From an uncultured bacterium (lineage in GTDB: Bacteria; Verrucomicrobiota; Kiritimatiellia; RFP12; UBA1067): DNA of 35,500 nucleotides. A program made the translations under genes and the position numbers. Numbering within the stretch: the stretch's first letter is position 1; each line of letters starts with the position of its first letter. The notes beneath the pieces are model-generated. The model was not told the DNA's origin and ran no database searches. It saw only the letters and a program-made list of their open reading frames with translations. Shown here one piece after another: positions 6,892 through 22,639 of this stretch. Location of the stretch: contig CAIZQW010000142.1 of NCBI GenBank assembly GCA_903935195.1, positions 1 to 35,500 of the forward strand, in the 5' to 3' direction.

Positions 6892-7887
6892 ATGAAAAAA
6901 GGGAGCTTAACCAAGGCCGTGCCACTCCACGCTGATTCCTGCGAAACCGTGAAGGAAGCACTGCAGGCGGGAGAGATGGAGCTTTTCGGGATTGCCCGAA
7001 ACAACTATCCCGGCACCCCCTTCAAGGCGAGCGAAGTCCCCGGTGTGAGTTGCTTCGGTTACTGGAAGACAACTGGCAAACAGAGCTATGGACTGCCCAC
7101 CCATCAAAATGAGGGGATTGAACTGACCGTCTCGCTACAAGGAGAGTCCCCGGTGACGGTAGACGGTGTAAGCCATAGCCTCGGACAGGGACAGATCATG
7201 GTTACACGTCCCTGGCAGAAGCACTCCATCGGAAACCCCTGCTTTACCCAAGGCCGCATCGGCTGGCTCATCCTTGATGTTGGCGTGCGCCATCCGCATC
7301 AGGAGTGGATCTGGCCTGACTGGGTGCTTCTAAGTAAGAGCGAACTGAAGAGTCTGACACGCGCACTCCGACAGAATGAAGATGCCATTCGCCCTGTTTC
7401 GCCAACCTACTTAGAGCTTTTCAACCGCCTCTTGCTGATCGCCAAATCTCCTGGGCAACCACACCGCGCTACGCGGATCGCACTCCTCGTGAACAGTATG
7501 CTGCTTGAACTCTTTGTGACTTTCGACTCCACACCGACAACCTATAAAGAATCCCTGACCGACTCCCTGCGCAGTATCAGACTCTTTTTAGAACAGCTCC
7601 CGAAACGGCTCCACGAACCTTGGACTCTCCAGACGATGGCTGAGGCATGTGGTATCGGACTCACACGCTTCTCAACCCAGTTCAGTGCCCTTACCGGCGA
7701 AACCCCTGCCAAGTATCTGATGAACCTGCGCATGGAGACCGCTGCAAAGCTTCTCCAAAATAGAGAACTCCCATTGCAAGACATCATCAAGCAGGTCGGC
7801 TTCACGACAACCAGCTATTTCATCCAGGTTTTTTCCCGCCACCATGGCCAGACCCCTGCGGTCTACCGGAGAAGCCATTTAAGTTGA
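6892..7887 (+). CDS. AraC family transcriptional regulator with N-terminal sensor domain
   Basis: A 331-residue regulator. The N-terminal half is a cupin-like sensor (GIELTVSLQGESPVTVDGVS, HSLGQGQIMVTRPWQKHSIG), the sugar-sensing fold of AraC-type proteins. The last 100 residues carry two helix-turn-helix units (WTLQTMAEACGIGLTRFSTQ and LPLQDIIKQVGFTTTSYFIQ, then FSRHHGQTPAVYRRS), matching the AraC/XylS DNA-binding domain. It is transcribed divergently from the isomerase/oxidoreductase/ThuA set, with 141 bases between the starts, so control of that set in response to a sugar is the natural inference. An alternative downstream start at MELFGI (6976) has a GGGAGAG nearby, but it lies too close to the ATG to be convincing. 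Confidence 0.88.
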   Translation: MKKGSLTKAVPLHADSCETVKEALQAGEMELFGIARNNYPGTPFKASEVPGVSCFGYWKTTGKQSYGLPTHQNEGIELTVSLQGESPVTVDGVSHSLGQGQIMVTRPWQKHSIGNPCFTQGRIGWLILDVGVRHPHQEWIWPDWVLLSKSELKSLTRALRQNEDAIRPVSPTYLELFNRLLLIAKSPGQPHRATRIALLVNSMLLELFVTFDSTPTTYKESLTDSLRSIRLFLEQLPKRLHEPWTLQTMAEACGIGLTRFSTQFSALTGETPAKYLMNLRMETAAKLLQNRELPLQDIIKQVGFTTTSYFIQVFSRHHGQTPAVYRRSHLS

Positions 7888-7899
7888 ATTTGGATAGAC

Positions 7900-8007
7900 T
7901 TATCAACTGTTTATCACTTTAAAGTTATCAACAGGTTATATTAAACTGTGTATAACTCTTAAAATGTTTATTAATAACTAGTTATATTGTTGATAATTTG
8001 TTGATAT
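7900..8007. other. oriC: candidate replication origin: cluster of DnaA-box-like 9-mers in AT-rich DNA
   Basis: Within about 110 AT-rich bases there are at least four good matches to the DnaA box TTAT(A/C)CACA and its common relatives. They are TTATCAACA at 7925-7933, the complement of TTATACACA at 7947-7955, the complement of TTATCAACA at 7988-7996, and a one-off copy on the minus strand at 7999-8007. Weaker copies are TTATCAACT (7900-7908) and TTATCACTT (7911-7919). A 12-bp perfect palindrome ATAACTAGTTAT (7974-7985) lies between the groups. The rRNA operon on one side reads away from it, and parB lies about 14 kb away on the other. No dnaA or dnaN gene is visible in the window. A DnaA-regulated promoter for the next gene is the main alternative. 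Confidence 0.55.
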
Positions 8008-8078
8008 CATCCCCTTGTGAAAAACACTCAAATCCGTCATACTACTCGTCATTCACATGTTATGAACAACACGATTTT

Positions 8079-8618
8079 ATGACGACACTACCACACGAAA
8101 TTTGCAAACAGATTGCGCAGGCCCGGCGGGAAAAGGGGTTGACCCAGAGCGTCTTAGCCCTTGAGGTCGGGTGCAAACAATCCGCCATCAGCATGCTGGA
8201 GGCTGGGCAGCCCTCGAAGCTTTCTAAAGAGAACATCGAGAAGATCGCCTCTGCGCTCGGACTAACCCTTCAGACGACACAGGCAAAACTGGTCACCTCC
8301 CTCGGAGAGAAAAAAGGATTTTGTCCTAATGCCCATTGCCCCTCAAACACACCGTACATAATACAAGGCGAACTTATTTTCCAGCCCCGGCTTCAAGTCG
8401 AAAAGCATTGCGCCTACTGTGCGGAGCTTTTAGAGACCTGTTGTCCAAACTGCGCAACAGCCATTCACGCTGAGGGATCCTATTGTACCGCTTGCGGCAC
8501 AATCCGCATCACAAATACCCTGCCCGCCGATCTACCGATTGCAGCCTGGGTTGTCGAACGTCGGCGCGAACTCATGGAGTTAAGGAAGTTGACAAACTTT
8601 TCATCGCCGGAAGGCTAG
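8079..8618 (+). CDS. XRE-type helix-turn-helix protein with zinc-ribbon C-terminus
   Basis: A 179-residue protein. Residues about 5-60 form a Cro/XRE helix-turn-helix (QIAQARREKGLTQSVLALEV, SAISMLEAGQPSKLSKENI). The C-terminal part has four paired-cysteine knuckles (CPNAHC, CAYC, CPNC, CTAC), which look like two zinc ribbons. It is probably a DNA-binding regulator; no target can be named. The ORF track starts it at a TTG at 7998, inside the DnaA-box cluster; the ATG at 8079 immediately before the HTH domain is preferred, although no clear Shine-Dalgarno precedes it. It begins about 70 bases from the candidate origin, and its 3' end overlaps the convergent radical SAM gene by 47 bases. Confidence 0.72.
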   Translation: MTTLPHEICKQIAQARREKGLTQSVLALEVGCKQSAISMLEAGQPSKLSKENIEKIASALGLTLQTTQAKLVTSLGEKKGFCPNAHCPSNTPYIIQGELIFQPRLQVEKHCAYCAELLETCCPNCATAIHAEGSYCTACGTIRITNTLPADLPIAAWVVERRRELMELRKLTNFSSPEG

Positions 8619-10932
8619 GATGGCGGATGAGCGTTGAACTCCATACCTTCAACGAAAGCTTGGAGGAGAACTCGATCGCGATACACGTGCCACCTTCGAT
8701 TGGCTGCAGTGAACAAGAATAGAGCATTTTCTTTTTTAAGGCCGCTGGTGCGAGATCAAGCCGCCACCCCTCCCCTGCCTTGCACAGCGTATGGGCGAGA
8801 TGGAGGTCCTTCAACCACTTACTCCCTGATTCCGCTGCCACGCGGGGTGTGAGCGACGTATGGAGCAAGCAGGATGCCTTCGAGAAGATCCCTGGTTGAA
8901 AACCATCCGCGACTTCTCCACCCACCAGCGGAGCGGCATCCGCAAGTGCACGTTGCAGTGCTTTCCGATCCCATGCGCGAAAGGCAACGACTGTTTGTCC
9001 ACACGGGATCTGGAAACGGTCTTCATTCTCTCCAAAGCTAAAGATCACCTCTTCAATCGAGAGCAGATTCTCCATCAATTCGGGATGGCGACTGAGGAGT
9101 TCACGCATCAATTCGGCATTGAGCGTGGCTGGCGGCAAACCGGCAGAGCTTTCGGGAAGCGTGACAACCCGATAAAGAAGCGGCAGACGGCGTTTGGATG
9201 ACTCGACGGCCGCGACATCCTGAATGTCGGACTCTGAAATGCGTTGCGAACGTGAATGACGGACAATTCGACGCATCTCCTCCGGGGTCGAACAGGCACC
9301 GCAGGCAGCGCATTCGCTGCCAAGACAATACCCCTTGTCGCGATAAACACAGGCCTCTTCCCACCGTTTTCTCAAAAATTCAGAGGTGACTGGGCGCTGC
9401 ACAAAGGGAAAGGGTTGTGAAGGCTCCATCTGCACCGCAAGGACTGTCTGAAGCTTGGTGGCCTCCACTGGCAACCAGGGACCATGATACGAAAGTCCTT
9501 CACTTGCCAATTTGACGACTGCGGGGGCATCCTCATGTCCGCAAGCAGCCAGCAGTTGCGTTCCGAGATAATCCGGCCAGTCAAAGGCAAAACGAAATTC
9601 GAGTTTCGCCCGACGACAAGCCGCCGAGACTCCGTCTACGCAGAAACGCCACTCCTGCTCATCCAGCAACAAGCTATCAAACATCAAGGGCGTATTCGGC
9701 ATGCGCACGAGCCGTCCGAAGCTCAGCACCACCCGTGTACCACACTTAGGCGCGCGAAGTTTCTCCTGCAAACGCGAGCAGAAGGAGGAGAAGGCAGCCA
9801 GGTCTTCAGCCGCTTCATGTCCGGTGAGAATATAGAAGAGTTTGATCTCCCGGACACGATTGCTTAAGAGTGTCTGAAGCGCTAACTCAATATCCTCGTC
9901 GCTCAGCGACTTGCAGAGAAAAGCCCGCATGCGCGCACTGATGCCTTCGATCCCCAACGTAAACGATTGTTTCCCAGCGGCGCGCTCAAGCGCGATAATC
10001 TCCGGACATGCCGCAATGCCATCCGCCCGCTGACTCTTGAAGGAAACCCGATCAAACAGCTGCGAACAGTTTTTGACCAGCGGAACAAAATCCGCATACA
10101 TGTTTAGATTGAAGGCATCCAGCTCAACGGTCCGCGCACCATATTCGCGCTTCAAAAAGTGGGCGCGCTGAAGCACTTCCTTCAACGGTGTCTCCCGGTA
10201 AGGCTTGCGTTCATAGCCTTCAAAACAGAACGAACAGAAAGCTGGGCACCCCCTGCTCACCGTGAGACGGACGGTGCCAGTCAAAGTAGCAGTCGGCAGC
10301 CGGCTTCGCTGGGAAGCTACGCCGCGCCAGGGTGGCAGTTGGCAGTTCGTGGCATCAGACGGCGTAGGCGAGCGGACCACCGCCTGTTTGAGGGGTTGGG
10401 CAGGCAAACAACCGGTCACCCAGAAGCCATCAAGCCCCTCTGTCGCACGCAGCAAACGCGAGCGTTTCTCCAAGCCGGCTTGCGTCCTCGTGTCCTTGCG
10501 TCCTTCCGTCATCCGCTGTACAAACCTCGGCAGCACCTCTTCGGCCTCGCCAAAAAAGAGCGCATCCGGCACCGCCCTACCATCCGGACAGACAAGGCAC
10601 TGGGCGGCAAAGGCATTTGAACCGCCGAGGATTACAGGAGGGAACGATTCAGGCCGTTCAGACGCCCAAGGGGAAAGGCCGTTCATCGCGAGTAGCCACG
10701 GCAAGTTGACGGCCTCTTGGACAAAGGAGTTCGAGACGAGAATCAAGTCGAAGGCGTTCCAACCCAACCCGCTCTGTGCACCGACTACGAGAGGCGTACG
10801 ACGTGGCGGGAGAAAGGCAAAGTCAATCAATGCATCAGGACAAGCCAAGCGACAGAGTTCAGCTAACACGGTATGTGTCGCTGAAGCTTCTGTATCACGA
10901 CTGTTCGACAACCTTAAAATCAAGATCTTCAT
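8572..10932 (-). CDS. radical SAM protein with N-terminal B12-binding-like domain
   Basis: This 786-residue protein has an N-terminal Rossmann-like domain (MKILILRLSNSRDTEAS, FDLILVSNSFVQEAVNLPWL, DALFFGEAEEVLPRF) resembling the cobalamin-binding half of B12-type radical SAM enzymes. The radical SAM core carries the iron-sulfur motif CPAFCSFC (C229, C233, C236; CX3CX2C). A second cysteine cluster, CLGSECAACGAC, near residue 540 may hold another iron-sulfur centre. The ATG at 10932 was chosen over the ORF-track start (11199), which would overlap the sulfatase by about 250 bases. It begins 13 bases after the sulfatase stop, so the two are probably co-transcribed. The reaction is unknown. Residues about 190-218 look like translated repeat DNA just before the core, and the 3' end overlaps the XRE gene. 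Confidence 0.72.
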   Translation of the reverse strand: MKILILRLSNSRDTEASATHTVLAELCRLACPDALIDFAFLPPRRTPLVVGAQSGLGWNAFDLILVSNSFVQEAVNLPWLLAMNGLSPWASERPESFPPVILGGSNAFAAQCLVCPDGRAVPDALFFGEAEEVLPRFVQRMTEGRKDTRTQAGLEKRSRLLRATEGLDGFWVTGCLPAQPLKQAVVRSPTPSDATNCQLPPWRGVASQRSRLPTATLTGTVRLTVSRGCPAFCSFCFEGYERKPYRETPLKEVLQRAHFLKREYGARTVELDAFNLNMYADFVPLVKNCSQLFDRVSFKSQRADGIAACPEIIALERAAGKQSFTLGIEGISARMRAFLCKSLSDEDIELALQTLLSNRVREIKLFYILTGHEAAEDLAAFSSFCSRLQEKLRAPKCGTRVVLSFGRLVRMPNTPLMFDSLLLDEQEWRFCVDGVSAACRRAKLEFRFAFDWPDYLGTQLLAACGHEDAPAVVKLASEGLSYHGPWLPVEATKLQTVLAVQMEPSQPFPFVQRPVTSEFLRKRWEEACVYRDKGYCLGSECAACGACSTPEEMRRIVRHSRSQRISESDIQDVAAVESSKRRLPLLYRVVTLPESSAGLPPATLNAELMRELLSRHPELMENLLSIEEVIFSFGENEDRFQIPCGQTVVAFRAWDRKALQRALADAAPLVGGEVADGFQPGIFSKASCLLHTSLTPRVAAESGSKWLKDLHLAHTLCKAGEGWRLDLAPAALKKKMLYSCSLQPIEGGTCIAIEFSSKLSLKVWSSTLIRHPSLPAMKSLSTSLTP
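10287..10346. repeat. short repeat element apparently embedded in frame in the radical SAM gene
   Basis: Two pairs of 7-mers occur here: TAGCAGT-CGGCAGC (10287-10300) and TGGCAGT-TGGCAGT (10333-10346). They flank CGGCTTCGCTGGGAAGCTAC and small hairpins, with GTAGC and GCTAC as outer complementary pieces (10286-10290 and 10316-10320). The translated region is rich in Ser, Arg, Pro and Thr and falls between the N-terminal domain and the conserved radical SAM strand. Its composition and repeat layout resemble the intergenic elements elsewhere in the window, though the arms here are direct rather than inverted. Confidence 0.4.
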
Positions 10933-10945
10933 AGAAGGGCCCGCT

Positions 10946-12481
10946 CTACTTAAAAGCAGGATTATATTTGCCTGATTCCTTGAAACCAGACAGCTCCTTT
11001 CGCATGGTGTTATAGCGTGGATAACTGTCAAAAATCTCACTGCCCAGCACCCGAGGATCACCCTGTTGGCGGAGCAACTCCCGCAAGCGGGTCCGCAACT
11101 CCGCGACCGTCTTGGCATGCGCGGGCTGGCCAGCCAGGTTGACCACGCATCCGGGATCTTTTCCCACATCAAAGAGCTCATCGCCCGCCCGTAACCCAAA
11201 GGCCATCTGGAAATACGGAGCGATCAGCTCCTCCTTCTGATGCTCAAGAAGGTAATCCTTCGTCCAGCCGCCGTCATCCGTGTCACGGAAACTCGGAGGA
11301 TTCCCGACCGGCCATCGATCAGGCTTCATGTTCCAGATATACAAATACTGATCCGTGCGGATTGCCCGGCTAGGATAGCCGACATTGTCCGGCCGGGCAT
11401 GCGTATGCCTCTCCCGTCCGAAGAGCACACAGTCGTTGATTCCCTTCGCCTCCGAGCCGTTCAGACCGGGGAGCACACTGCGTCCTGTCATCTCCGTCGG
11501 GATCTTCACACCGGCGGCATCCAGAATTGTCGGGGCGATATCCACGCAACTCAAAAGGTTCTTCACCTGTTGTCCCGCGCGGACCGCTGGCGGATAACGA
11601 ATCGCGAGGGGCAGACGCACGCCGTGCTCATAGAGATTGGCTTTTGCATGAGGAAATGGCATCCCATTATCCGACAGGACGATGATCACCGTGTTGTCCA
11701 GCTCACCGTGCGCCTCGAGGAGCTTCATCATCTTCGCCAGATGGGAATCGAACCATTCAATTTCCAACAGATAATCCAGTAGATCAGTGCGCACCGTCTC
11801 GTTGTCCGGCAAAAACGGAGGCACACGGACATCTGCCAGTGCCTTACCGGACTTCAAGCCTGATCCTTTTTCGTAATCCCGATGGGGTTCATATCCGCCA
11901 TACCAGAAGCAAAACGGCTGATCCGTTTTTTTCTGTTTGAGAAAGTCCTCGAAATTTCCAGCATAGTCCGTTTTTGAGATACCCGTAGCCGGCACGGTGT
12001 CCAGCTTCCTCTCATTGAACGCGTTGCCGGCAGGATTGCGTGTGCGTCCGCTAATCTTCCAGTTTCCGGGGCTCCAGGCCTTGCCGGTATACCCAACCGT
12101 ATACCCCCGTTGCTCCAGGAGGTCCGGATAGACGGCTAACTCAGACGGAAAGCTACTGGAGTGGGTTCCCGCCTCACGATTCTGCCAGATATGACGGCCC
12201 GTCAACAGCGAAGCGCGGTTCGGACTGCACTGCGGAGCTGCTGCAAAAAAACGTGTAAAGAGCGCACCCTCCGAGGCCACGCGGTCAAAAGCGGGGGTTT
12301 TCACAGTCTTACATCCATACGCCCCATAATGCTCCCACGATTGATCATCGCTGATTGCCACCAGTATGTTGGGTTGCTTCCGGTTGACATCCCTCTCGGC
12401 AGCAGTCAGCTGGCTGACCAGCAGAAGCGAACCGATGCCTGCCAGAATAGTGATTTTTTTTCGATTCGTACTGTTTTTCAT
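10946..12481 (-). CDS. exported S1-type sulfatase (formylglycine-dependent)
   Basis: A 511-residue type I sulfatase with a signal peptide (ITILAGIGSLLLVSQLTAAE). The catalytic motif is C85-S-P-N-R in APQCSPNRASLLTGR; C85 is the residue converted to formylglycine. The metal site begins with D45-D46 in NILVAISDDQSWEHYGAYG and continues with LSDNGMPFPHAKANLYEHGV. The DDQSWEHYGAYG opening resembles heparan N-sulfatase-like members, so a sulfated glycan substrate is likely, but specificity is not decided by motifs. The protein would act in the periplasm or outside the cell. It shares a likely operon with the radical SAM gene 13 bases downstream and diverges from the large haem/SUMF1 gene, with a 221-base gap holding no clear gene. 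Maturation needs an FGE or anaerobic maturase, and none is recognisable here. Confidence 0.9.
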   Translation of the reverse strand: MKNSTNRKKITILAGIGSLLLVSQLTAAERDVNRKQPNILVAISDDQSWEHYGAYGCKTVKTPAFDRVASEGALFTRFFAAAPQCSPNRASLLTGRHIWQNREAGTHSSSFPSELAVYPDLLEQRGYTVGYTGKAWSPGNWKISGRTRNPAGNAFNERKLDTVPATGISKTDYAGNFEDFLKQKKTDQPFCFWYGGYEPHRDYEKGSGLKSGKALADVRVPPFLPDNETVRTDLLDYLLEIEWFDSHLAKMMKLLEAHGELDNTVIIVLSDNGMPFPHAKANLYEHGVRLPLAIRYPPAVRAGQQVKNLLSCVDIAPTILDAAGVKIPTEMTGRSVLPGLNGSEAKGINDCVLFGRERHTHARPDNVGYPSRAIRTDQYLYIWNMKPDRWPVGNPPSFRDTDDGGWTKDYLLEHQKEELIAPYFQMAFGLRAGDELFDVGKDPGCVVNLAGQPAHAKTVAELRTRLRELLRQQGDPRVLGSEIFDSYPRYNTMRKELSGFKESGKYNPAFK

Positions 12482-12702: not shown

Positions 12703-15700
12703 ATGGTCGGTTTTAAAATGATAACAGGTATAAGAGTTTCGATTATTTGTTGTTTAGCGTTGCTAGGGAATGACGCTTTTGCGGCAGAAAAGAAAGCCCC
12801 TGCTCAGGAACCAAAGACCGCGGGAGCAACGGATACTAAAGTTGCACAACCCGCGAAAGATCAAGCTCCTAAAAAGGGGAAAGCAGCTGTACCCCAAGGA
12901 CCGGAGTCCCTTGAAGCACTTGTCAAAGCTTCACCACCCGAAGCGCTTGTCCGTTCCATTAAACATATTCTCAAGACCAAGCCCCGCGATTACAAGAATG
13001 GCCAGGAGTTTCTAAAGCAGGCGGAGTCTATTGCCACAAAGATGACGCTCCTGTTGCCTGGCTTGGACAAAGGTGATGCCGAGGCCATGAAAATCTACCT
13101 GGATTTTGAGGCACTCAAATACAAGGCACTGGTTGTTGACAACCCCTACATTACCTTTGACGAGACACTCGTCGTCATGGCCGACCGCCTTCGGACGAAG
13201 AACAACTGGCTGGGCACCCATGTCATGGGACCCAAGGGGCACGTGAACAAGATTGCAAAGTTTAATATCAAGACAAAACAAATCACCGACATCTACGAGC
13301 CCAAAGACGGTTCTTTCGTCGGCGAACCTGATCTTTATTTTGATGGATCCAAACTCCTCTTCACCTCCAGCGACTCGAACAAGGCCTTCCAGGTGATGGA
13401 AGTTGACATCAATGGAACCAATTTGCGCCAAGTCTCAAAGATGACAGGCGATTATCTCCACTGCTACGGCGGTATCTATCTACCGAATGACAAGATCATC
13501 TTCAGTTCGACTGCTCCGCTCGTCGGCGTGCCTTGTATCGGGGGCGGCCAGACCGTACCCAATCTCTATCTGATGGGGCCCAACGGTGAAAATCCACGCC
13601 AGCTGACCTTCGAACAGGACGCGGATTGGTATCCAACCGTTTTGGCAGATGGCAAAGTAATGTACTTGCGCTGGGAGTACACGGATATCATGCACTACTA
13701 TACACGTATCATGATGACCATGAATCCTGACGGCTCCAACCAACGCTCCATCTATGGTTCACAAAGCCTTTGGCCCAACGCCATGTTCAATGCGCGCCCG
13801 ATTCCGGGACAGTCTGGTCAATTCGTGGCGATCGTCTCCGGACATCATGGTGTTGCAGGAACTGGTAAAATGACGATCTTCGATACCAACAAGGGATATG
13901 CCCATGCCGATGGCGTGGTACAACACATTCCAGGTTATGGCAAAAAGGTAACCCATGTGACGGTTGACCAATTGTACCCCAAAGTAAAGAAGGACCTTCT
14001 TGTGCAGTTCCCCAATCTCCAACAGGATGTGGATGCCCTCATCGCCAAAAGCATGCCTCCAGATTCACAGAAAGGGAAAGACTATCACGAACTCAATAAC
14101 GACTTCTTCAACAAGTGCTATGCACAGTTACGTTCCATCTACCCGGAGATGGCACTGGACTTGGACAGCTTAGCCAATGGCGTCTACCCGCAATCCATCC
14201 AACCCTATCCCATCAACGCCAATTATCACCTGGTTGTCTCCCGAGTCACCCCCAACAGTCCCTATCGCCTCTATCTCGTAGACACGTTTGACAATTTCGT
14301 ACCCGTACAACCGGAAGACATGGGACAGTACAAGGTAATGACAGAACCGTATGTCTTGCAGAAACGTGAGCGCCCGCCGGTCATCCCTGAGCGCGTCAAC
14401 CTCCAAGACAAAGAAGCGGTCTGTTATATCCAGAATATCTATCGCGGACCTGGACTGAAGAATGTCCCTGTCGGCGAAGTGGACTCGCTTCGTGTCTTCA
14501 CCTACGTGTATGGCTACTTCCGGATAGGCAACCACCATCATCTCGGCGTGGAGAGCGGCTGGGACTGCAAGCGTGTGCTCGGTCATGTAAAAGTCGAAAA
14601 AGACGGTTCTGCCATGTTTAAGATTCCAGCCAATACAACGATTTCCATCCAACCCCTCGACAAGCAAGGACGCGCAATCCAACTCTTCCGAAGCTGGCTT
14701 GTCGCCATGCCTGGCGAAGAGCTCTCCTGCGTGGGTTGCCACGAACCCCCGAACGAGCCGCCTGTCACGAGCAAAACCATGGCGTCATTAAAAGAGCCGC
14801 AAAGACTCACCCCTTACCGTACGCCAGTGGAAGGTTTCTCGTTCATCAATGAGATCCAGCCGATCCTGGATGCTTACTGTATCCGTTGCCATGATGGAAC
14901 TGATCCCAAGAAGCCTAACTTCAAGGATACCCAGCTTGCATCGAACAGCCCCTCTGACAACTTCAGCAACGCCTATCACGCCCTCCATCGCTACTTCCGC
15001 CGTCCGGGACCGGAAAGCAACGGCATCATGGGCATCCCCTACGAATTCCATTCCTCGACATCCGAAGGCATTCAAATGCTTGAAAAAGGCCATTATGGCG
15101 TCAAGCTCAATGCGGATTCCCTACGTCGCCTCAACATGTGGATTGACCTGAATGTCCCGTATTATGGGAGCTGGTCTTCGGTCTATGCAAGCACAGGAGA
15201 TAAAGGCTCTTGGGCTTCGACCATTGCGTCCAAGGCTGCAGACTCTCGCGAGAAGTATGCGGGCGCCAGTGAAGATGAAAATCGCGAATATGTCTCGCCG
15301 ACCCCGCATCCTGTCAAGGCTACAGAGGAGAAGAGCGAAGAACGCCTACCCCCTGTCAGCGTCTCCGCAGACAACTGGCCCTTCTCCGAGGCTGTCGCGC
15401 AAGAGATGCAAAAGAAGCTCGGCACGGAAAAGAAGACGATTGAGGTCGCTGAAGGTGTGAGCATCACGCTTATCCGCATCCCCGCAGGTGAGTTCATCAT
15501 GGGCAGTGATACTGAAACAGCGATTGAACAGCCTCGTCACACGATCAAGATCACCAAGCCCTTCTGGATGTCGGAAAGCGAAATCAACAACGCCGCCTTC
15601 TTCGCCTTCAAGCCTGATCACAACGCGAGCGTCTATGACCAGCAATGGAAAGACCATGTTCGCCTGGGCTACTATGCGAACTACGTCGAGCAGCCTGCGG

Positions 15701-16263
15701 TCCGCATGACCTGGCAAGATGCTCAGGCCTTCTGTGCATGGTTAGGCAAGAAGAGCAACATGAAGGTCTCCCTCCCCTCGGAAGCTCAATGGGAATGGGC
15801 CTGCCGTGCAGGTAGCGACAAGGATATGGCCTTTGGTGACAAAAACTCCGATTTCAGCCCTTATGCAAACCTTGCTGATAAATCCATTGAAAGGTTCGCT
15901 GTCACCGGAGTCAATCCGACCTTTAATCCTAAGAATGTCGGCAATCGTACTCTGGATTTCATCCCGCGCATCTCCGCCTTCAATGACGGACAGTTCCTTG
16001 TGACCGGCACCAAGCAGTATAAGCCAAACGCCTGGGGACTCTATGACATGCATGGTAACGTCGCGGAATGGACGCGCAGTGATTATGCTCGCTACCCCTA
16101 TAAAGCAGGGAAGAGCGACACCCTCTCGCCCCAGGAGAGAAAGACGGTCCGCGGCGGATCCTTCTTTGATCGCCCCTATCGTGCAACAGCCAGCTATCGT
16201 CTAGGCTATGCACCGTGGCAGGGTGTCTTCAATGTAGGGTTCCGTGTCGTTATCGAGGAGTAG
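12703..16263 (+). CDS. exported HZS-alpha-like dihaem protein fused to a SUMF1/FGE-type domain
   Basis: A 1186-residue multidomain protein. Order: signal peptide (RVSIICCLALLGNDAFAAE), a Lys/Pro/Ala-rich linker, a TolB/WD40-like propeller (about 150-420; SSDSNKAFQVMEVDINGTNL, YLMGPNGENPRQLTFEQDAD), and a hydrazine-synthase-alpha-like region ending in the haem motif CVGCH (676-680). A second haem motif, CIRCH (726-730), follows. From about 912 to the end lies a SUMF1/FGE-fold domain (IRIPAGEFIMGSD, SLPSEAQWEWACRAG, GLYDMHGNVAEWTRSD, NVGFRVVIEE). HZS-alpha-like proteins are common in PVC bacteria that do not make hydrazine, so anammox is not implied. The SUMF1 C-terminal segment (GGSFFDRPYRATASYRLGYA) lacks the catalytic cysteine pair of true FGE. 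AGAGGGGG about 7 bases before the ATG supports the start. It sits 130 bases before a second haem protein and is probably co-expressed with it. Confidence 0.85.
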   Translation: MVGFKMITGIRVSIICCLALLGNDAFAAEKKAPAQEPKTAGATDTKVAQPAKDQAPKKGKAAVPQGPESLEALVKASPPEALVRSIKHILKTKPRDYKNGQEFLKQAESIATKMTLLLPGLDKGDAEAMKIYLDFEALKYKALVVDNPYITFDETLVVMADRLRTKNNWLGTHVMGPKGHVNKIAKFNIKTKQITDIYEPKDGSFVGEPDLYFDGSKLLFTSSDSNKAFQVMEVDINGTNLRQVSKMTGDYLHCYGGIYLPNDKIIFSSTAPLVGVPCIGGGQTVPNLYLMGPNGENPRQLTFEQDADWYPTVLADGKVMYLRWEYTDIMHYYTRIMMTMNPDGSNQRSIYGSQSLWPNAMFNARPIPGQSGQFVAIVSGHHGVAGTGKMTIFDTNKGYAHADGVVQHIPGYGKKVTHVTVDQLYPKVKKDLLVQFPNLQQDVDALIAKSMPPDSQKGKDYHELNNDFFNKCYAQLRSIYPEMALDLDSLANGVYPQSIQPYPINANYHLVVSRVTPNSPYRLYLVDTFDNFVPVQPEDMGQYKVMTEPYVLQKRERPPVIPERVNLQDKEAVCYIQNIYRGPGLKNVPVGEVDSLRVFTYVYGYFRIGNHHHLGVESGWDCKRVLGHVKVEKDGSAMFKIPANTTISIQPLDKQGRAIQLFRSWLVAMPGEELSCVGCHEPPNEPPVTSKTMASLKEPQRLTPYRTPVEGFSFINEIQPILDAYCIRCHDGTDPKKPNFKDTQLASNSPSDNFSNAYHALHRYFRRPGPESNGIMGIPYEFHSSTSEGIQMLEKGHYGVKLNADSLRRLNMWIDLNVPYYGSWSSVYASTGDKGSWASTIASKAADSREKYAGASEDENREYVSPTPHPVKATEEKSEERLPPVSVSADNWPFSEAVAQEMQKKLGTEKKTIEVAEGVSITLIRIPAGEFIMGSDTETAIEQPRHTIKITKPFWMSESEINNAAFFAFKPDHNASVYDQQWKDHVRLGYYANYVEQPAVRMTWQDAQAFCAWLGKKSNMKVSLPSEAQWEWACRAGSDKDMAFGDKNSDFSPYANLADKSIERFAVTGVNPTFNPKNVGNRTLDFIPRISAFNDGQFLVTGTKQYKPNAWGLYDMHGNVAEWTRSDYARYPYKAGKSDTLSPQERKTVRGGSFFDRPYRATASYRLGYAPWQGVFNVGFRVVIEE

Positions 16264-16272
16264 TAACCTCTC

Positions 16273-16432
16273 TGGAAAAATGGAATAGAGGAATGATGGA
16301 ATGATGGGGATGCAGAATACTGTCTCCGGAAATCACAACACCCTCTCCATCTGGGCTTCAAATACGATGCTCAGATGGTTCTGCAAGAAGCTGATGTCTA
16401 TTATTCCACTATTCCACTACTCCATTATTCCG
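16273..16432. repeat. second inverted-arm element with four 8-mers per arm, overlapping the next gene's start
   Basis: The left arm 16273-16304 is TGGAAAAA, TGGAATAG, AGGAATGA, TGGAATGA. The right arm 16401-16432 is TTATTCCA, CTATTCCA, CTACTCCA, TTATTCCG, the complement of the same octamer type. The roughly 96-base centre differs from that of the copy at 5750-5904, so the conserved part is the arm unit rather than the interior. The right arm is translated as IIPLFHYSIIP at the N-terminus of the following gene. Confidence 0.75.
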
Positions 16433-18256
16433 ATCCGGTTCTCCCTGACATGTTGGGCGTTCGTCGTGAGCTGCTTTTCTTTCGACGCCTTCGCGGCTGA
16501 GCCGAACTACCTCTCGCCCTCCTCACTCGCAATGACCAAGGATGGCAAGACGCTCTATGTCGCCTGCCAGACCGCAGGCGAAGTCATGGTTTTCGACACA
16601 ACAACCGAGAAGGTCACGGCGCGCCATGCCCTCACCAATGTCCACCAATTTGCCCTCTCCCCTGACGAGCAGCGACTCTATCTCACGGGCGGGACCAGCC
16701 ATGGCACCCTCCAGGAGGTAGACTTGAAGACAGGGAAGGCCTTGCGGTCTTTTTCTGCTGGGCATACACCGATGTCTCCCCTTGTCACACAGGATGGCAA
16801 GCGGCTCTTCTATTGCAATCGTCATGCCCGTACCGACCAGCCGGATATCCATGAGCTAGATATTACAACAGGCAAGATCCTGCGTTCCGCCAAGGCCATT
16901 CGCGAACCCGTGAAGCTGTGTCTGTCCAAGGATGAGCAGACGCTCTGGGCCTTCAACCACCTGCCCCTGATGGAGGCCAATCGCTCAAATGTCTTCACCT
17001 CCGTCTCGGTCTATGACGCAAAGACCTTCAGACAAAAAGCAAAACTCGATCTGCCCTCTGGCTCCTTCGCCATTCGGGACGCAGTGATGAGCCCTGACGG
17101 GAAATATTGTTTTGTCACCCATACCATTGGACGTTTCACCGTTCCAACAACCCACCTAGATCGAGGCTGGATTAACACCAGCGCCATCTCAGTCTTGGCT
17201 GTCGAAAAATGCGCTTACCTGAATACGGCATTACTGGACGACACCACGCGTGGTGCAGCCAACCCCTGGGGCGTCACCATCACCCCTGATGGCAAGTGGC
17301 TCTGTATCACCGCCTCGGGCATCCACGAATTACTCGTAATTCCTGTCGCTGATTTTTTGAAACGCCTTGCTGCCTGCGCGAACCCGAAGGAGGTCGTCAA
17401 CAACCTCTCCTTCTTGTATGGCGCAAAGACAAGATTACCCCTTGAAAAATGCCTAGGTCCGCGCGCAGTAGTCGCCTCAGGGGATCGCGTCTATTCTGCA
17501 AACCGCTTTTCGGACAACCTCGCTGTCGTCCAAATGTGGGATGACGGCCCAGGCGGTGTCGTACCGCTCCCACTGGTCGAGAAGCCAAAAGAGCCCGACC
17601 TCGTGCGTCATGGCGAACGGATCTTCAATGACGCCACACTCTGTTACCAGCAATGGCAGAGCTGTGCAAGTTGCCATCCCGACACCCGTTCAGACGGCAC
17701 CAACTGGGATTTGCTAAATGATGGCATCGGCAATCCAAAGCAATCCCGCAGCATGCTCTACTCCCACAGGACCTCACCGGTCATGATCACCGGCATCCGA
17801 GAGTCCGCTGAGATCGCGGTTGAAAAGGGCTTCACCATGATCCAGTTCCAGTCCGTGACCCCCTTCTATCTCGATACGGTCAACGCCTATATCAAATCGC
17901 TTGAACCTGAACTCAGCCCCTATCGCAACCCCGATGGTTCCCTTACCGCAGCTGCCGTGCGCGGCAAAGTTATTTTTGAAGGCAAGGCTGAGTGCATTAA
18001 GTGTCATACGCCCCCCTATTATGGCGATAAAAAACCGTACGTCCTGGGCCTCGGCTCAGACAACGAACGCACCCGCGCTTTCTGCACCCCTATCCTGATC
18101 GAGGTTTGGCGCACAGCCCCCTATATGTACGACGGCCGCGCACTCTCTATGGAGACCGTCATCACCACTGACAACAGCAATAATAAGCACGGCAACACCA
18201 AAAACCTCTCCAAAAAAGAGGTCCGCGACCTCGGCGAATACGTCAACTCGCTGTAA
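16394..18256 (+). CDS. exported YVTN beta-propeller protein with MauG/cytochrome c peroxidase-like dihaem domain
   Basis: From the preferred ATG at 16394 this is 620 residues. A hydrophobic signal ending DAFAAEP is followed by a seven-bladed YVTN-type propeller (SLAMTKDGKTLYVACQTAGE, FALSPDEQRLYLTGG, TPDGKWLCITASG). The C-terminal domain has two haem c motifs, CASCH (424-428) and CIKCH (534-538). RTAPYMYDGRAL is typical of the dihaem peroxidase/MauG family, as is the text after the first haem (DGTNWDLLNDGIGNPKQSRS). Such proteins reduce peroxide or oxidise a partner protein in the periplasm. It follows the HZS-alpha-like gene and likely works with it. The ORF track begins at 16301, inside a repeat; both candidate starts lie in or between repeat arms, and only AAGAAG precedes the chosen ATG. 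Confidence 0.82.
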   Translation: MSIIPLFHYSIIPIRFSLTCWAFVVSCFSFDAFAAEPNYLSPSSLAMTKDGKTLYVACQTAGEVMVFDTTTEKVTARHALTNVHQFALSPDEQRLYLTGGTSHGTLQEVDLKTGKALRSFSAGHTPMSPLVTQDGKRLFYCNRHARTDQPDIHELDITTGKILRSAKAIREPVKLCLSKDEQTLWAFNHLPLMEANRSNVFTSVSVYDAKTFRQKAKLDLPSGSFAIRDAVMSPDGKYCFVTHTIGRFTVPTTHLDRGWINTSAISVLAVEKCAYLNTALLDDTTRGAANPWGVTITPDGKWLCITASGIHELLVIPVADFLKRLAACANPKEVVNNLSFLYGAKTRLPLEKCLGPRAVVASGDRVYSANRFSDNLAVVQMWDDGPGGVVPLPLVEKPKEPDLVRHGERIFNDATLCYQQWQSCASCHPDTRSDGTNWDLLNDGIGNPKQSRSMLYSHRTSPVMITGIRESAEIAVEKGFTMIQFQSVTPFYLDTVNAYIKSLEPELSPYRNPDGSLTAAAVRGKVIFEGKAECIKCHTPPYYGDKKPYVLGLGSDNERTRAFCTPILIEVWRTAPYMYDGRALSMETVITTDNSNNKHGNTKNLSKKEVRDLGEYVNSL

Positions 18257-20546: not shown

Positions 20547-21602
20547 ATGATTCGAGTCAAAGTTGTTGGAGCCACCGGGTATGGTGGGGTGGGAATTACC
20601 GAATTAGTGTTGCAACATCCAGAGGCGAAGTTGTGCGCTCTTGTTGCGCGTGACGATGTCGGACACAAGATCTCTGATGTCTATCCCCACTTAGATGGTT
20701 TTTGTGACATGCCTGTCTTGGCTGCTGACGATCCCAACGCAAATGAACCCGCTGACGTGGTGTTCTTCTCAACGCCCGATCAAGTCGGAATGCATGACGC
20801 ACGTAAAGAACTTTCCAAGGGCGCCAAAGTCATTGACTACAGCGGTGATTTTCGTTTCACGACCTCAGAAGCCTACGCCGACTATGCCACGCGTATTGGA
20901 AAATCTCCAGCCCATGCCTCTCCTGACTTACTCGGAAGTAACGCCTATGGACTCGCTGAGCTCCACCGCGCAGAAATCGCTCAAGCAAAAATCGTGGGCA
21001 ACCCGGGATGTTTTGCATGTAGCTGTATTCTCGGCATGGCTCCAGCCGTAAAGCATGCCATTGTGGAACCCTACAGTATCATCTGCGACTGTAAGACAGG
21101 GGTCTCCGGCGCCGGCAAGAAGGTAAGCCCCACCTTTCATTACCCCGCACGTTACGAACAGATGAATGCCTATAAGCTCGCAGGCCATCAGCATGTCTGC
21201 GAGGTCGAACGCGAACTCAGCCTCCAGGCGGGACGCGACATCAAGGTGACCTTCACCGCACAGGTGGTGCCCGTCTGCCGTGGCATCCTATCAACGCTCT
21301 ATGGAACCTTGACAGCCCCCATGACCGAAGCTGAGGTCATCACCCTCTATCGTGAATTTTTTAAAGAGAGCCCGTTCGTCCGTATCTACGGCAGCACTGC
21401 TGCAATCGGTACACTCCACGTGCGTGGCACTAACTTTTGCAATCTCATTGTCAGCGTAGATACGCGCGTTAACCGCCTCCGCATCGTAGCTCATATTGAC
21501 AACCTGATGAAGGGACAAGCCGGCTCCGCCCTTCAAAACATGAACCTGATGTTTGGCCTCCCGGAGAATATGGGCCTCCATCGTTCAGGAATTTATCCAT
21601 GA
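20547..21602 (+). CDS. argC: N-acetyl-gamma-glutamyl-phosphate reductase
   Basis: A 351-residue cytoplasmic enzyme of arginine biosynthesis that reduces N-acetyl-glutamyl-phosphate to the semialdehyde with NADPH. The N-terminal nucleotide loop VVGATGYGGVGITELVLQHP, the catalytic cysteine in VGNPGCFACSC, and the GVSGAGKK and HQHVCEVERE segments are all typical of ArgC. The length is normal. It overlaps parB by four bases (ATGA), so the two share a message driven by the promoter just upstream. No other arginine gene lies beside it. Confidence 0.95.
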   Translation: MIRVKVVGATGYGGVGITELVLQHPEAKLCALVARDDVGHKISDVYPHLDGFCDMPVLAADDPNANEPADVVFFSTPDQVGMHDARKELSKGAKVIDYSGDFRFTTSEAYADYATRIGKSPAHASPDLLGSNAYGLAELHRAEIAQAKIVGNPGCFACSCILGMAPAVKHAIVEPYSIICDCKTGVSGAGKKVSPTFHYPARYEQMNAYKLAGHQHVCEVERELSLQAGRDIKVTFTAQVVPVCRGILSTLYGTLTAPMTEAEVITLYREFFKESPFVRIYGSTAAIGTLHVRGTNFCNLIVSVDTRVNRLRIVAHIDNLMKGQAGSALQNMNLMFGLPENMGLHRSGIYP

Positions 21603-22639
21603 GTACGAAAAACGCAAAGCAGAAAAAACAGGCCGTCCAAGCGACGACAAGCAAGTCAACCCCCACCCCGAACAAGCATCCGCGTCCGGGACTTGGAAAA
21701 GGATTTGGATTGCTCATTGGCAACACGACCCTCTCAAAGCATACGTCACAGATGCCGACCATTCCTCCGCATCAGTCGCCTGCTACCGCTGGTTTGTTGC
21801 CGACCGCGGTCCCCTCGCACGCCATTCATGATATTCCGCCTGGAGAGATCGAGCGCTCGCCTTGGCAACCCCGTCATATTTTCGATGAAGAGACGCTTGC
21901 CGAGCTCACCGAATCCATCAAGGTCAAGGGAATCATCTCGCCCTTAATTTGCCGCAAGAATGCCAACGGACGGTACGAGCTCATCGCTGGCGAACGCCGC
22001 CTGCGCGCGGCGATCGCAGCGGATCTGAAAAAAGTTCCTGTGATTCTGATGGAGGCCGAGGATCGAGTCGCAGCTGAAATCGCGATTATTGAAAATATTC
22101 AACGCCAAGACCTTAATATCATTGAAGAGGCAGAGGGCTACCGAACGCTAGCTGACCACTTCAATCTCACGCAACAGGAGGTTGCTGAACGCGTCGGCAA
22201 GCCTCGTACCAGCATTGCAAATGTTGTGCGTCTTTTGGATCTTCCCGATGAGGTGAAGCAGTTTATCGCTGACAAACGCCTCTCGACTGGCCACGCCAAG
22301 GTGCTCCTGGGGTTGACCGATGTCACCGAACAGACCTTGCTAGGACGCAAGTGCGTCACTGAAGAGATGACGGTCCGTTCTCTTGAGAAACTGATCCAGC
22401 GTCGCAAGGCGGCCAGTGATGGCACACAAGAGCGTAAACGCGGCACCCCTGATCTTCCTGAGAGCTACCTGCGCGACCTGACAGACCGCATGCACAAGCA
22501 CTTTGGCACGGCTGTACGCCTAACGCCAGGTGTTACACATGCCAATGGCCGGCACACCAAGGGATTGCTCGAAATTGACTTCTATGATAACGACGACCTT
22601 GACCGTCTGCTCTCGATCCTCGGTATTAAGATTGACTGA
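21599..22639 (+). CDS. parB: ParB/Spo0J family chromosome partitioning protein
   Basis: A 346-residue DNA-binding CTPase that loads at parS sites near the origin and helps segregate chromosomes. After a basic, Pro-rich N-terminal tail come the ParB core boxes: SPWQPRHIFDEETLAELTES, LIAGERRLRAA (CTP-binding arginines) and IIENIQRQDLNIIEEAEGY. A helix-turn-helix (LTQQEVAERVGKPRTSIAN) and a C-terminal dimerisation region follow. The start overlaps the argC stop as ATGA. The usual partner parA is not upstream; argC takes that place. No parS-like TGTTTCACGTGAAACA was found by eye in the window. Its position about 14 kb from the DnaA-box cluster suits an origin-proximal ParB. Confidence 0.93.
   Translation: MSTKNAKQKKQAVQATTSKSTPTPNKHPRPGLGKGFGLLIGNTTLSKHTSQMPTIPPHQSPATAGLLPTAVPSHAIHDIPPGEIERSPWQPRHIFDEETLAELTESIKVKGIISPLICRKNANGRYELIAGERRLRAAIAADLKKVPVILMEAEDRVAAEIAIIENIQRQDLNIIEEAEGYRTLADHFNLTQQEVAERVGKPRTSIANVVRLLDLPDEVKQFIADKRLSTGHAKVLLGLTDVTEQTLLGRKCVTEEMTVRSLEKLIQRRKAASDGTQERKRGTPDLPESYLRDLTDRMHKHFGTAVRLTPGVTHANGRHTKGLLEIDFYDNDDLDRLLSILGIKID

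Follow-up and report, generated by a model that had tools for sequence, protein, structure and literature searches.

A cluster of DnaA-box-like sites in front of an XRE-type gene

The window analyzed here, a stretch of 35,500 nucleotides, contains a short AT-rich interval between the gene of an AraC-family regulator and a gene encoding an XRE-type helix-turn-helix protein (the XRE gene). Within it lie 9-mers resembling DnaA boxes, a palindrome, and two putative promoter hexamers, as follows.

6892–7887, plus strand: AraC-family regulator, the upstream neighbor, also kept in the sister genome G001
7900–7908, plus strand: box TTATCAACT, conserved in G001
7908, minus strand: weaker box TGATAAACA
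7925–7933, plus strand: box TTATCAACA, among the most conserved alignment columns
7947–7955, minus strand: box TTATACACA, inverted partner of the box at 7925
7965, minus strand: weaker box TAATAAACA
7974–7985, no strand: palindrome ATAACTAGTTAT, not conserved in G001
7988–7996, minus strand: box TTATCAACA, from box scan and alignment
7999–8007, minus strand: box ATATCAACA, nearly invariant in relatives
8015–8020, plus strand: putative −35 hexamer TTGTGA, of which the TTG part is conserved
8038–8043, plus strand: putative −10 hexamer CATACT, after a 17-nt spacer, invariant in 13 aligned genomes
8060–8068, plus strand: box TTATGAACA, directly downstream of the predicted transcription start
8079–8618, plus strand: XRE-type helix-turn-helix and Cys-rich (zinc-ribbon-like) protein of 179 aa, the gene behind the cluster
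8572–11199, minus strand: radical-SAM protein, encoded convergently to the XRE gene

Six DnaA-box-like 9-mers, four of them strong, are found at 7900–8068. For 7888–8078, dinucleotide shuffles gave an expectation of 0.43 boxes and 0.09 strong boxes (p = 0.0005 in both cases), and the AT content is 80% in 7900–8007 compared with 48% for the window as a whole. The preliminary description had reported at least four good boxes in very AT-rich DNA, which these figures bear out, and had placed them at 7900–8007; boxes are indeed present there, but the cluster continues to 8068 with the box at 8060. The genome-wide box search that it proposed gave 61 TTATCAACW sites in the assembly of the same genome (3.63 Mb), and the only three such sites within 100 bp of one another in the whole genome are those of the window cluster. 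A cluster of boxes in AT-rich DNA, as expected of an oriC, is therefore present. AT-rich 9-mers might pile up by chance in a region of this composition, an explanation to which we give practically no credence: the shuffles keep the composition, and conservation over many genera refutes it.

At 7925 most relatives read TTATAAACA instead of TTATCAACA, and at 7947 they read TTATCAACA or TTATTAACA in place of TTATACACA. The 12-bp palindrome singled out in the preliminary description exists at 7974, but G001 reads ACAACAAGTTAT at this position; it was therefore rejected as a functional element and is probably a chance occurrence.

The XRE protein has a helix-turn-helix domain (Pfam HTH_3, E = 6.7e-13). 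Its second half contains eight cysteines that are invariant among 23 aligned homologues, and we read it as zinc-binding; NCBIfam offered no specific family name for the protein. Since the radical-SAM gene is convergent, the XRE gene is probably transcribed as a single-gene unit. We read the TTG-N17/18-CATACT pair as its promoter on account of conservation and not of consensus strength: the hexamers match the consensus weakly, and a strict sigma-70 consensus scan did not report the pair. Elsewhere in the window, two adjacent proteins encoded at 12703–18256 gave weak, below-cut-off matches to the hydrazine synthase alpha and beta-gamma families and are probably proteins of beta-propeller and cytochrome-like type with a different function.

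The dnaA-dnaN locus of the same genome

The preliminary description had taken the cluster for an oriC not adjacent to dnaA. The landmarks that it used are real: the rRNA sequence at 1–407 belongs to a minus-strand 16S gene, of which the 5′ part is present, and points left, parB is located about 14 kb to the right (21599–22639), and dnaA and dnaN are not nearby, both being on contig C150. The origin-like layout read from gene orientation and the proximity of parB was nevertheless rejected because the window contains no parS, the usual companion of an oriC, and its GC skew is flat, at −0.072 to the left of the cluster and −0.065 to the right. All seven 5-kb bins are negative, no change occurs at 7.9 kb, and no skew minimum was found at the cluster; the genome is in 466 contigs, so this evidence is local only. 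Third-codon-position skew gave inconsistent minima and was not used. At the cluster the score for a DnaA-trio module is 2.8 (p = 0.18), giving no sign of an unwinding module, and no such module stood above shuffles at the XRE site in 19 genomes. The parB product itself scores above the TIGR00180 cut-off and is near Noc but under the Noc cut-off; its gene sits after argC, and parS is absent from the same contig.

Contig C150 carries dnaA (8603–9994) in the row dnaA-dnaN-tex-mnmE-mnmG and has the following sites.

G000:C150:1376–1391 and 1480–1495: exact TGTTCCACGTGGAACA palindromes, taken as parS, inside mnmG (locus L051)

Both exact TGTTCCACGTGGAACA sites found thus lie inside mnmG on the dnaA contig. 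As a separate observation, these palindromes recur in mnmG or near dnaA throughout the class, as a lineage variant of parS. Boxes lie in the dnaA-dnaN spacer at +70, +122, and +187, and they are spaced almost identically in G001, G021, G034, and G039. They are followed by a 13-nt spacer and then CTAATATTACTACTATTGATACTT, which comprises eight trio-like triplets. Judged by sequence, this arrangement fits the pattern of DnaA box, spacer, and DnaA-trios that defines the basal unwinding system (PMC8287927, PMC6669920), and its trio-module score was 8.3 against a null of 2.3 (p = 0.016, the lowest value reachable with 60 shuffles).

GC skew turns from negative to positive at the dnaA-dnaN spacer in all six such genomes that could be read (the genome of the window, G000, together with G001, G021, G039, G013, and G049). 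Within the stretch read, the cumulative skew minimum falls in the spacer or no more than about 250 bp outside it in G000, G001, G021, G039, and G049; in G013 the distance is about 6 kb. The dnaA-dnaN spacer on C150 is the most likely start of replication in this genome, a placement that rests partly on relatives, as C150 is only 17.7 kb long and the window 35.5 kb. The skew check suggested in the preliminary description thus put the minimum at dnaA-dnaN and not in the window, within the limits set by the fragmented assembly. With boxes, trios, mnmG parS, and skew switch all on C150, we disfavor the window cluster as the oriC of its own genome.

Conservation and position of the boxes and the XRE gene in relatives

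Homologues of the XRE gene were present in 52 of 60 relatives, and the related loci come from records titled Kiritimatiellae, Lentisphaerae, or Verrucomicrobia. The comparison with relatives for which the preliminary description had called showed that the boxes are conserved together with this gene, at least three box-like sites lying within 450 bp upstream of it in 71 of 80 loci. In an alignment of 13 genomes (the window's own included) in which dnaA was not seen beside the XRE gene, with flanks that are short in some, the boxes at 7925 and 7999 and the TTG-N17/18-CATACT pair were among the most conserved columns. A scan of 2.22 Mb in 18 contigs for groups of at least four strong boxes per 200 bp found them upstream of the XRE gene in seven of 13 contigs that carry it and in only one other place, directly after dnaN in G057. 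Exceptions to this conservation occur in genus g14 and in a few deep branches, where zero to three boxes lie upstream of the XRE gene. XRE genes of g14 that are unlinked to dnaA have no boxes, and in G057 the XRE gene, about 29 kb from the cluster after dnaN, has none either. Where dnaN and the XRE gene are separated in g14, it is apparently dnaN that the boxes accompany rather than the XRE gene, a behavior better suited to part of an origin than to part of a promoter.

These data bear on the identity of the 9-mers. Regulators of the XRE type commonly recognize inverted repeats in the promoters of their own genes, and some of the window boxes form inverted pairs, so the sites might be operators through which the XRE protein controls its own gene. 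We hold this to be improbable, given that the same 9-mers occur at dnaA-dnaN beside the trio module, that TTATCAACA and TTATGAACA are also present at dnaA-dnaN of G005, where an XRE homologue was not found, and that the G057 cluster is remote from an XRE gene lacking boxes. Identification of the window 9-mers as DnaA boxes is supported by TTATCAACA and TTATGAACA also adjoining the DnaA-trio module at the dnaA-dnaN locus of the same genome.

The position of the boxes and the XRE gene relative to dnaA varies. In the genus of the window, the dnaA-dnaN and XRE box groups occupy separate contigs, and in G001 a distance of at least about 26 kb lies between them. In gut lineages, the boxes and the XRE gene lie about 4–5 kb downstream of dnaA, giving two box groups separated by a few kb, one at dnaA-dnaN and one upstream of the XRE gene. 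In genus g24 (G026 and G038), they lie 3.7 kb from a parS, with dnaA on another contig. The XRE protein tree calls for at least six changes between the linked and the unlinked state.

Of 32 loci linked to dnaA for which both arms were readable, 28 show a rise in skew at the cluster (p = 7.5e-6), while the unlinked loci show no consistent switch (8/14, p = 0.41); the difference between the two sets has a p value of 0.01. The skew minimum lies within 450 bp of the XRE cluster in six of the 32 linked loci and is scattered over 20 kb in the others. In most linked genomes dnaA-dnaN is about 2.5 kb away, so skew cannot separate the two sites; only g24 separates the XRE cluster from dnaA-dnaN, and the two g24 genomes do not count as independent. 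A cumulative skew minimum within about 700 bp of the XRE cluster was seen in G047, G035, G026, and G038, and none was seen at the XRE site in G021, G013, G049, G057, G039, or G027. The origin proposed in the preliminary description is therefore not supported for its own genome and fits relatives better, their homologous cluster being at or near the skew minimum. For this reason, the homologous element may possibly have origin activity in the gut lineages or g24.

Could the window cluster all the same be the chromosomal oriC, set apart from dnaA? It is the densest DnaA-box cluster found, in DNA of high AT content, and homologous clusters coincide with the skew minimum in G047, G035, G026, and G038, the last two with dnaA on another contig. 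We nonetheless consider it unlikely, because the window skew is flat, the cluster lacks a DnaA-trio module, and dnaA-dnaN of this genome has the trio module, parS, and the skew minimum; skew also reaches its minimum at dnaA-dnaN in G001, G021, G039, and G049.

Two further observations concern these loci. A second three-box group lies upstream of mnmG in G026 (C74, ~65417) and G038 (C21, ~102956), about 2.5 kb from the XRE cluster and near the skew minimum. In G030 (C45), gene strand switches sharply at the locus, with 10 of 76 genes on the plus strand to the left and 34 of 35 to the right.

A putative DnaA-responsive promoter

We propose that the window interval is probably a DnaA-responsive promoter outside the origin that also titrates DnaA. 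This reading is based on the retention of boxes and TTG-N17/18-CATACT in 13 genomes without dnaA seen alongside, and on the location of the dense strong-box groups upstream of the XRE gene, save the one after dnaN; it is favored because skew switch, mnmG parS, and trio module are at the dnaA-dnaN locus of the same genome. DnaA, probably ATP-DnaA, would bind five or six boxes, situated upstream of the XRE promoter and immediately beyond it, and form an oligomer there, so that XRE transcription would be set by the level of free DnaA, and DnaA bound at the cluster would be withdrawn from the origin. In the lineage of the window, the element would act away from the origin, affecting both the XRE gene and the pool of free DnaA; in relatives, it may have become part of the origin region. 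DnaA binding, the direction of regulation, titration, and the role of the XRE protein are what we infer from these comparisons. A promoter bound by DnaA is the simplest account that covers both the linked and the unlinked situations.

In Bacillus subtilis, DnaA activates sda, a gene outside oriC, by way of several DnaA boxes in its promoter (PMC4447404). The window likewise shows several boxes around the promoter of a single small regulatory gene that does not lie at dnaA-dnaN, and the box layout is conserved with promoter and gene, apart from the exceptions given above. Unlike with sda, the gene product is an unrelated XRE-type helix-turn-helix and Cys-rich protein, control by DnaA is predicted from sequence, and in relatives of this genome, the element is at or near the origin.

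Removal of the DnaA-box clusters of B. subtilis leads to early initiation (PMC5295017). The window cluster resembles these and datA of Escherichia coli (PMC5295017) as an extra-origin box cluster that may take up DnaA, but differs in being tied to one conserved promoter. It might be purely a DnaA sink or a site that resets the state of DnaA (datA- or DARS-like), its place before the XRE gene being incidental. Several strong boxes packed together far from dnaA would suit that role; the cluster, however, keeps the same gene and promoter over many genera and has a box immediately downstream of the start site that titration alone would not need, which leaves this option with a small chance.

Bacterial origins with the basal unwinding system (PMC8287927, PMC6669920) share several boxes and AT-rich DNA with the window cluster, which lacks their DnaA-trios, skew switch, and nearby parS; its own genome has these at dnaA-dnaN. 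The two box groups of the gut relatives recall the bipartite origins of B. subtilis and Helicobacter pylori (PMC6669920, PMC5295017), unlike the widely separated groups in the genus of the window.

More tentatively, and well behind the DnaA-responsive promoter in our estimation, the boxes and the XRE gene could form a mobile piece of the replication control of this class, with the XRE protein as a new regulator of initiation. Such a unit would in some lineages sit beside dnaN or parS and serve as the origin or replace part of it, in g24 apparently with dnaA elsewhere, and in other lineages be a distant DnaA-responsive regulator.

Within a limited literature search, we found no published description of a replication origin in Kiritimatiellota. 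The data give a testable picture of replication control for a largely uncultured class and name for one genus a canonical dnaA-dnaN origin together with a candidate gene for a regulator connected to DnaA. Linked and unlinked forms of the element offer a natural comparison of how box clusters may join or leave an origin. The data also caution that a dense DnaA-box cluster by itself is insufficient to identify oriC.

Two minor observations concern the records. One assembly, G007, has two copies of the XRE gene (on C14 and C217), each with upstream boxes, and is possibly a mixed bin. Two records titled Akkermansia muciniphila (loci L071 and L116; CAMBQV010000046.1 and CAMBQN010000005.1) contain a Kiritimatiellia-like XRE locus, and their titles look wrong.
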